From Sinohyriopsis cumingii (taxonomy: Eukaryota; Mollusca; Bivalvia; Unionida; Unionidae): 64,000 nucleotides of DNA. Below, piece after piece: positions 5,838 to 9,000 of the stretch (position 1 is the first letter of the stretch; the number at the start of each line of letters is the position of its first letter). A model generated the notes under the pieces. The model was not told where the DNA came from and ran no database searches. It worked only from the letters and a program-made list of their open reading frames with translations. The stretch covers positions 162,806,130 through 162,870,129 of the forward strand of contig CM068824.1 in assembly GCA_028554795.2 (NCBI GenBank), given 5' to 3'. A program made the translations under genes and the position numbers.

Positions 5838-6033
5838 CTGTGAAAGCTATTAAGAAGCAGCACCTTGTTGAAGTGCGAGCCCTCCCCAATCCTCCCATCC
5901 CAGTCAAGTTGGCTTTGGAATCCATCTGCATGCTTCTGGGTGAACAGGATCTCGACTGGAAGTCAATTCGTAGCATTATCATGCGGGAAAATTTCATCTC
6001 CAGCATTGTCAATTTCAAGACTGATGACATATC
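5838..6033 (+). CDS. DYNC1H1: DYNC1H1 mutually exclusive exon A: coiled-coil 1 tip and MTBD helices H1-H4
   Basis: The acceptor is tccctag after a strong pyrimidine tract; the donor is gtaagt. The exon is 196 nt: two bases finish an Ala codon begun upstream, 64 codons follow, then TC is completed to Ser by the next exon at 10483. The protein starts [14 protein letters not shown] and continues [20 protein letters not shown]. The proline-rich turn marks the coiled-coil 1 to MTBD junction, and VKLALE begins helix H1, which faces tubulin in published dynein MTBD structures. [14 protein letters not shown] and IVNF follow. By my alignment this copy is the closer of the two to vertebrate DYNC1H1, about 48 of 65 residues. 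It is the first member of a tandem exon pair. Confidence 0.95.
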
Positions 6034-9000
6034 GTAAGTTATGGCATGCTGAGTTTTAAAGAAATGACAGAATGAAGCATGTGCAGGTATATGATAGTGT
6101 CCTAAATGGAAACGGTATAGATGAAGCATGTTTGATATTGTTTTGGGTGTGGTTTTTATTCAGTGGTGAATTTTCTTGGACTAAATAACACTCCTAATCT
6201 TTTCCTTATTTGAATAGGAAACTTAATCATCTGCACATGTTGCTTCTGTCATTCCATAATATAAAGGACATTTAGATAAATTCAAACTGTTTTTGCTATA
6301 GCTGTGCAATCAATCAAGAAGAAAGATCTTGTTGAGGTACGAACAATGGCCAACCCGCCTCCAGCAGTGAAGTTAGCCCTGGAAGGAATCTGCCTTCTGC
6401 TGGGGGAACCAGTCACTGACTGGAAATCTATTCGAGGAGTTTTGATGAAAGATAACTTCATCCCCAACATCGTTAGCATGAAGACCAATGATATCAGGTA
6501 GAGAGAGAGAGTATTCTACTGGGTAAATACGAACCTGTAGCTTTGAAAATACCCATTATTGATGTAAACTAACCAATACACTGATGCTAGAGCTTAAGGT
6601 TTTATCTTTGAAATGCTAAAAGGAAAATGTAGCTTCTCATGCAACAGAAATTTCTTGATTTTTGGTGGTAAATTAAAGTACTTTTGTTTTGTGGCAGGAT
6701 ATAGGTATATATCACTTTAGGGCAAGAACCACAGCAGCATCTGTAGTTATATCAACCATTAAACCATATATAGTTATATCAACCATTAAACCAGATATAG
6801 TTATATCAACCATTAAACCAGATATGTTTGGGTTGCATCATAGCATGCAGCAGGAAGAAACAGCATATTGTTGAATATTTGTGGTTTGTTCCAAAATTGT
6901 GTGTGAAAGATTTATTTCTTGCCATTTTCAATTGGTCTGTGCTGTTACTTTTGTAAAACAATATTATATTTAAAATCCATCTGCAAAATCAACATGTGTT
7001 TCTCTTGAGAAGCACACATGTAGTCACACTGCAATCCCCATCTTACGAGGCCATCCTTCTACAATAGAATTGTAGAAGTTTGAAACGGGTAAGGGGAACA
7101 TTTTGGTTTAAATGTATAATTTTAGCTTTCAACAAGATGCCTTCTAAAAGATTGGCAGTACTTGAGAGAGGGGAACAACCTTTAGATTGCTTGTTTAAAA
7201 CGTGCAATAATTCAGAAGAAAAGAAAAATAGACAAAATATTTTATTGAAAATGTTCCTTTGTGTATGCTTGGCATAAAATAACAACTTTCAGCAGATGTA
7301 TTGCAAACAGTAGTATCAAATTTTGTACGACACTGGATAAGAGTGTGGATCTCTCAGCTTTGGGAATATAGTTTTTTTCTATGCATTGATGTCTAAAACT
7401 AAATTTTGTTCTTTTGTTCTGTGAATACAAACAGTTTTAGTTGTTTTTAAAATGAAGGTGATAAAACTTGCAAAAATTGAGGCTGGGTTCTTCAGTTTTT
7501 TTCTATTTTTGAATGTCTAAACAATTATAGCCAAAGTTGATTTTACAGTTATTTTTTGTACAACTGTATAATTTGTCAAGAATTTTTAAGAGTGGTGGTA
7601 AACTTTTTGCCCCATACATCAATAGTTCAAACACAAGTACTTTGGGGGAGTTGCCACACAGGTGCTGGTCAATTTAACAGCAGAAGAACAAGGTGTGATT
7701 GGCTGCAACCCAAGGTTACCCTGTTAAGATATGCATAGACCTGGAGTGCTGACCATAGCAATTGTACTAATTTATCTACACAAAACACCAGGTTACTGTT
7801 ACAGTAAAACCTGTCTGGTGCAACCACCCCTTCTGTCAACAAAAAGTGGTCACTTAGGATAGGTGGTCTTAATAAAAAATACTCATGTTTATTGTACCTG
7901 TATTTTCTTTAATCATAGTTTTGCTAAAATATTACATGAATTCATTTGAAAATACTATGTAGCCAAAATACATTAATCACAAAATTTATTTTTATTTAAA
8001 GTTTCATGAAGTTTGTTGGCATTATAGCATATGTATTGTAAAGTAACTGCAATGCATCACTCAATTTTCCTATCTATAAATTGTAGAGTTAGCTATGATA
8101 ACACATTAAATTTATTTACAGCCAAAAGCCCAAAACTATATTGCCCACAGCATAAATAATGAATGGATCAACTCAATAGTCATTGACACAAAAGTTTATC
8201 ATAAGGCATGAAAACAGTTTAAACATATTTACATTGCTCTTTGAAGAATTAAAAAAAGCAATGATTTTTAATGTACTCAGAAGACAAAAGCTTCCAGGTG
8301 ATGTTGACTCAAATAAAGATGAAGTCTGTTTTGTGATTTCTGCCTAATTGGGCAACATTAAAGGCACTGGGGTGGCTATTTTGCCTAAATTGTACCTCAA
8401 GCTTTGGTCCTGCTTGTAAATTCTAGCATCAGCACTGCCACCTGATCTAGGTTTACGACAATTTATATTTGTGGTGATTTTAGGGCAAAGTGATCTTTTT
8501 TTTCAAGCATTTCAAGGGTTGTACTATTTTTTGCATGCAACAACTGAAAGATGCAGTGTCTGAGTCAGAATGAACAAAATTATTTCTTCTGCTTTCTGTC
8601 TAAACTACTTCCATTAAAATAAAAACTATGTGATAAACAGAATCTCAAATGGGTAATGATTTGATATTAAATTTATGAAACCTGATGAATGTGAAGCCTT
8701 TGCAAGCCTTGTTGAGCAAAAGATTGACATTATTCAACTCATTTAATAAATTCAATATTAAATCATTAGCCAGTTGAGATCATCTATATATACGTAGTCA
8801 GTGACACATAAATCCATATAAACATCTTCATAAACACTGACAGATTGCTCAGTCAATAAAAAATTCAAATATTAATCATATCTGCTCACATATGTTTAAG
8901 TAATTGTTGGGAATTTAATATGAGTTACTTGGGCTCCCAGTGAGATGCTGGAGTGCTATGGTAATCACTTGTCCTGTTTCTCACTTCTTGTAATTACCAT

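Follow-up and report, generated by a model that had tools for sequence, protein, structure and literature searches.

In a window of 64,000 nucleotides (nt) from Sinohyriopsis cumingii (contig CM068824.1, positions 162,806,130 to 162,870,129), two neighboring exons seem to encode alternative versions of the same part of a motor protein. Judging from their sequences and reading frames, exon A (positions 5838 to 6033 of the window, + strand) and exon B (6302 to 6497, + strand) are very likely to be mutually exclusive coding exons of the cytoplasmic dynein-1 heavy chain gene; this estimate covers that statement only, and neither the Rbfox nor the mechanical steps proposed below. Each exon is 196 nt long, both have the same phases, and each is flanked by AG at its 5' end and by GT at its 3' end, exactly as given in an earlier note on this DNA. 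They correspond to residues 3295 to 3360 of human DYNC1H1, in the microtubule-binding domain (MTBD). Exon A is closer to the human protein in helices H1 and H3, and exon B is divergent in these helices. We infer that both exons are spliced in vivo. Each mRNA would take A or B, giving two heavy chains with a common motor ring and common helices H5 and H6 but different helices H1 to H4, and the animal can probably produce two dyneins that grip microtubules differently.

If both split codons are counted, 42 of 66 residues and 129 of 196 nt are identical between the exons, which differ at the other 24 residues and 67 nt. With the leading G from the upstream exon, we also reproduced the 41 identical residues of 65 that had been reported before. 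Neither exon contains an in-frame stop in the dynein frame. When exon A was compared with 127,606 ungapped windows of 66 residues from all six frames of the 64 kb, exon B was the best match apart from A itself (41/66 when read in genomic DNA) and the runner-up reached just 13/66, which excludes chance similarity. Compared with human DYNC1H1, exon A is identical at 49 of 66 residues and exon B at 45 of 66.

Because 196 leaves a remainder of 1 when divided by 3, only one copy is usable per mRNA. The upstream exon, which we located in 20 kb of additional upstream sequence, ends at position 162803969 of the contig (C1), or 7,997 nt 5' of exon A and about 2.2 kb before the window. Its last base, G, begins a split codon (phase 1), and it joins in frame to either copy. 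The next constitutive exon does start at 10483, as the earlier note had proposed, and its first base (T) completes a serine codon after A and after B. Joining the upstream exon to A or to B and then to the exon at 10483 gives an uninterrupted frame in each case, with alanine at the first junction and serine at the second. The serine codon is built from TC plus T after A and from AG plus T after B, and these codon families are two changes apart. In contrast, including A then B, including B then A, or skipping both shifts the frame and leads to a stop 10, 4, or 6 codons past the junction codon, respectively, so joint inclusion or skipping would be unproductive. This frame logic supports the mutually exclusive architecture that was originally suggested. 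The pair also has the features by which PMC3228551, in its available text, recognizes mutually exclusive exons (MXEs): adjacent homologous exons of roughly equal length, with the same phase and compatible splice sites.

The early stops are also what would be expected under another explanation, which we consider unlikely: the pair might be used without tissue regulation, either at a fixed isoform ratio or with the inclusion of both or neither exon acting, through nonsense-mediated decay (NMD), as a frame-breaking off-switch for dynein dose. The stops after A plus B and after skipping both fit an off-switch. However, an off-switch alone leaves the full, constrained dynein sequence of the second copy unexplained.

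The gene encodes the heavy chain of cytoplasmic dynein-1, not of dynein-2 or an axonemal dynein. The best matches of both exons are mammalian cytoplasmic dynein-1 chains: with phmmer, A and B match the dynein-1 MTBD chain 3j1t_A with E values of 5.8e-27 and 1.8e-24, respectively. The exon pieces of the window, once joined, align colinearly to residues 3295 to 4458 of human DYNC1H1. Among the 60 of 96 matches that were listed, these joined pieces scored 1415 bits to human dynein-1 (8dyu_A), 359 bits to dynein-2 (4rh7_A), and at best 353 bits to axonemal chains. When each copy was joined to the next two exons, PF12777 (the dynein microtubule-binding stalk) scored 45.1 bits with A and 40.2 bits with B, against a cut-off of 24. 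An AlphaFold2 model of exon A, for which exon B was the sole other row of the alignment, had a mean pLDDT (a model confidence score) of 71.8 and helices at residues 7-13, 21-33, 41-48, 53-58, and 60-63. Foldseek matched this model to dynein stalk structures, with 3wuq best (E = 4.4e-5) and 3err and 6rzb also found. We take the model's helices to be H1 to H4; the shared next exon would then be the H5-H6 side. The sequence, PF12777, and fold matches thus bear out the earlier assignment of this segment to H1-H4 of the dynein-1 MTBD.

We then asked what the swap would change on the surface that meets the microtubule. In yeast, the residues that form salt bridges to tubulin are K3117 and R3124 (both on H1) and R3152 and R3159 (both on H3); the H3 residues are equivalent to mouse residues 3334 and 3342, and the strong-binding surface is named as three helices, H1 and H3 among them (PMC7042235). 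In mouse dynein, K3299 adjoins D427 of beta-tubulin and movement of H1 is the switch, and in axonemal dyneins a flap sits between H2 and H3 (PMC6629372). PMC4987762 reports, from earlier work, mouse K3298 on H1 and a glutamate on H1 of Dictyostelium. As far as the available text of these three papers goes, five of the six contacts they name are identical in both exons. In human numbering, which we obtained by adding 2 to mouse positions and by alignment for yeast and Dictyostelium, K3300, K3301, E3306, R3308, and K3336 are the same in A, B, and the human protein, and R3344 is arginine in A and lysine in B. Equating yeast R3159 with R3344 follows PMC7042235; an ungapped alignment puts R3159 one position earlier. 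Also, salt bridges of K3298 were absent from the simulations that PMC4987762 itself describes, so one of the named contacts is disputed.

The differences between the exons lie around these contacts. Beside the H1 lysines, A has QH and B has KD, and the H2-H3 loop has QDL in A and PVT in B. Exon A agrees with human at 8 of 8 positions in H1 (positions 7 to 14 of the segment) and at 10 of 11 in H3 (positions 41 to 51), versus 6 and 5 for exon B. Exon B is slightly nearer to human in the H1-H2 loop, H2, and the H2-H3 loop, with 5, 11, and 5 agreements versus 3, 10, and 4 for A. Net charge is nearly constant (+1 for A, +2 for B, and +1 for human). In human DYNC1H1, K3336N and R3344Q are among the changes reported to weaken microtubule binding, and they were found in patients with cortical malformations (PMC3824068); the swapped segment is therefore sensitive. 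From this pattern we infer that binding is retained and that B may tune the affinity for microtubules, the dwell time, or the way in which binding couples to stalk registry.

The duplication that gave rise to A and B is old, and both copies are under constraint. The proportion of synonymous differences between them (pS) is 0.761, which is saturated, while the proportion of nonsynonymous differences (pN) is 0.215. Differences at the first, second, and third codon positions number 21, 9, and 37, and different codons are used at 22 of the 42 residues that are identical. The flanks of A and B are unrelated (16 of 60 nt identical on each side). We also simulated neutral divergence, with 20,000 runs at each of five distances (d). 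At d of 0.45, 0.6, 1.0, or 1.5, none of the 20,000 runs remained open with at least 42 identities, and at d of 0.3, 1.2% did. Together, the synonymous saturation, the moderate replacement, and the simulation indicate that the duplication is old and that selection has kept both products. In a tree of five sequences and 66 sites, the best topology grouped B with human, but neither of the alternatives was rejected (approximately unbiased [AU] test, 0.18 each), so the tree cannot place the duplication before or after the split from vertebrates.

In the genome, we detected a single pair of this kind and no other dynein-1 gene. A search of 2,904,868,851 bases in 1,138 contigs with exon B, in which 13 candidates were scored, gave two matches at E ≤ 0.001, which were B and A. 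There was no third copy of either exon in the window (other matches had E of 0.48 or worse) and no further copy in the 20 kb upstream (E of 0.08 or worse). Nor were there duplicates in the window of 19 other exon pieces of the gene (the best other match had E of 0.11). Scans of viral contigs and genome contigs found no related loci, which is expected for a eukaryote gene.

How might the choice between A and B be made? The intron between them (6034 to 6301, + strand) is 268 nt, enough room for a normal branch point, which makes steric exclusion unlikely. This intron has three copies of GCATG (at 6044, 6077, and 6126), the binding motif of Rbfox; these are candidate Rbfox sites, versus 0.256 copies expected (Poisson P = 0.0023, uncorrected), and GCATG is the most enriched pentamer present. 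Across the window, 239 of 63,733 windows of intron size hold at least three copies. Another candidate site, a GCATG within TGCATG, lies at 5788 to 5792 (+ strand), 46 to 50 nt upstream of exon A. The genome also contains an Rbfox-like exon, with 85% identity over 34 residues to a human RNA recognition motif (RRM). Rbfox bound downstream of an exon usually favors its inclusion, and Rbfox bound upstream disfavors it. On this rule, Rbfox on the GCATG sites between the exons, which lie 3' of A and 5' of B, would favor A wherever Rbfox is present. The motifs and the Rbfox-like exon suggest a regulated choice, and our hypothesis is that the choice is regulated, with Rbfox as the best guess.

To compare the splice sites, we scored them with a matrix built from the gene's own sites, namely the 19 donors and 18 acceptors, all of the GT-AG type, that we assigned to constitutive exons beginning with the one at 10483. 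The acceptor of exon A is ordinary (4.93; 6 of the 18 constitutive acceptors score lower), and the donor of exon B is middling (7.0; 7 of 19 donors are lower). Several observations weigh against the proposed regulated, mutually exclusive use of A and B. The acceptor of exon B is weak (-0.06), with just 1 of the 18 constitutive acceptors lower, and the donor of exon A is weak as well (4.36; 3 of 19 lower). The enrichment of GCATG is not significant after correction for all pentamers. Finally, of three comparisons of RNA pairing, just one, that of the inter-exon intron with the 1 kb upstream, exceeded all 30 shuffles. Because the 3' splice site of B is weak and that of A is better, our guess is that A is the default copy.

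In and around the exon pair, GCATG is found at 5788, 5928, 6044, 6077, 6126, and 6476; the + strand of the whole window has 62 copies. We considered two other devices and rejected them. For competing RNA structures as the selector, the pairing with the 1 kb downstream and the pairing of the upstream and downstream regions did not exceed all 30 shuffles. A decoy acceptor at 6218 would produce an extended exon with in-frame stops, and its score (-1.82) is below the -0.06 of exon B.

We also considered whether one of the two exons, B being the likelier, is seldom used or is decaying, as a duplicate without a role. The weak acceptor of B would fit, as would its lower similarity to human (45 versus 49 of 66 residues). 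B also has more derived differences than A, with 8 versus 2 if Dictyostelium is the outgroup (chi2 = 3.6) and 11 versus 7 if human is (chi2 = 0.9), although neither excess is significant. However, B has retained an open frame, its exact length, its phase, and its splice borders past synonymous saturation, and it keeps five of the six named tubulin contacts, with lysine for arginine at the sixth. This explanation seems very improbable. There is next to no chance of an assembly artefact or of collapsed haplotypes: we saw nothing in favor of either, and the exons differ at 67 of 196 nt, have unrelated flanks, and start 464 nt apart on a contig of 193 Mb.

Mutually exclusive exons have been described before in a gene of this family. 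The cytoplasmic dynein heavy chain of Schistosoma mansoni (SmDHC1) has one pair of equal-length MXEs with split codons at both ends (PMC3228551, 2011). It was the first test case for MXEs in that study, which drew on an alignment of over 2000 dynein heavy chains to conclude that the two exons exclude each other (Pillmann et al. 2011). Exons A and B resemble the SmDHC1 pair in belonging to the same gene family, in being homologous and of equal length, and in having split codons at both ends. The available text of PMC3228551 does not name the domain, in contrast to exons A and B, which we place in the MTBD. The SmDHC1 pair is probably the same exon. Since S. mansoni belongs to the lophotrochozoans, the two pairs could plausibly share an origin, provided that the animal studied here is a lophotrochozoan as well. 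In view of the SmDHC1 pair, the earlier note's remark that it knew of no description of this switch was too strong.

Other known systems are less similar. The muscle myosin heavy chain of Daphnia magna has nine MXE clusters (PMC3228551). As with A and B, the arthropod gene is a single motor gene that obtains different mechanics by swapping homologous exons, but it encodes an actin motor and has several clusters, whereas A and B form a single cluster, in the half of the gene that we examined, and alter the track-binding domain of a microtubule motor. Mammalian DYNC1H1 is the same protein with the same residues, but it apparently has a single isoform (PMC3824068, available text). In the open-licence PMC literature, including the available text of PMC3583065, PMC3303723, PMC10916854, PMC5740500, and PMC3692071, we did not find a switch in the MTBD of a dynein heavy chain described. 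Thus, this kind of switch has a precedent in the same gene, and its consequence at the level of the domain was not found described in the open-access literature that we searched.

The diversity of dynein-1 is usually sought in the non-catalytic subunits and the adaptors rather than in the microtubule-contacting part itself. A broader reading, which we put forward tentatively and which may well be wrong, is that the switch is old and perhaps spiralian-wide, with two dynein-1 heads chosen by cell type via Rbfox. The B head, which is most changed relative to human in the tubulin-facing H3 and in H1, might then use tracks that differ in tubulin isotype or modification from those of the A head, or differ from it in run length, and mixed A/B dimers could exist. 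A natural pair of MTBDs that was selected for a long time, that differs at 24 of 66 residues, and that keeps the charges of the named salt bridges offers a ready-made test of where in the domain grip, run length, and coupling to registry are tuned. Human disease positions 3336 and 3344 fall within the swapped segment.

Downstream of the pair, the constitutive exon at 10483 to 10600 (+ strand) is, by position, on the H5-H6 side of the MTBD, and the exon at 12357 to 12572 (+ strand) belongs, by position, to the part of the stalk toward coiled-coil 2. The gene continues with more constitutive exons from 14052 to 58625 (+ strand), which code for what remains of the stalk and for the C-terminal half of the motor. 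Our exon model does not include the exons at about 18.8 kb and about 41.2 kb or the final exons of the gene, and it lacks the start of an exon at about 38.1 kb. Neither an Rfam scan nor a tRNA scan of the 64-kb window gave a match.

The window also contains repeats. An interspersed repeat with a residual reading frame has copies at 36889-37047 (+ strand) and at 12759-12917, 17420-17569, and 52569-52720 (all - strand), and two of the four copies have stops. Minisatellite arrays lie at 1-917, 34016-34517, 41526-42235, 59348-59706, and 63324-64000, with units of 44, 30, 47, 37, and 66 nt, respectively. On the - strand, the 66-nt array has an open frame of 224 codons, and on the + strand, the 30-nt array has one of 126 codons; such long open frames can arise when the unit length is divisible by three.
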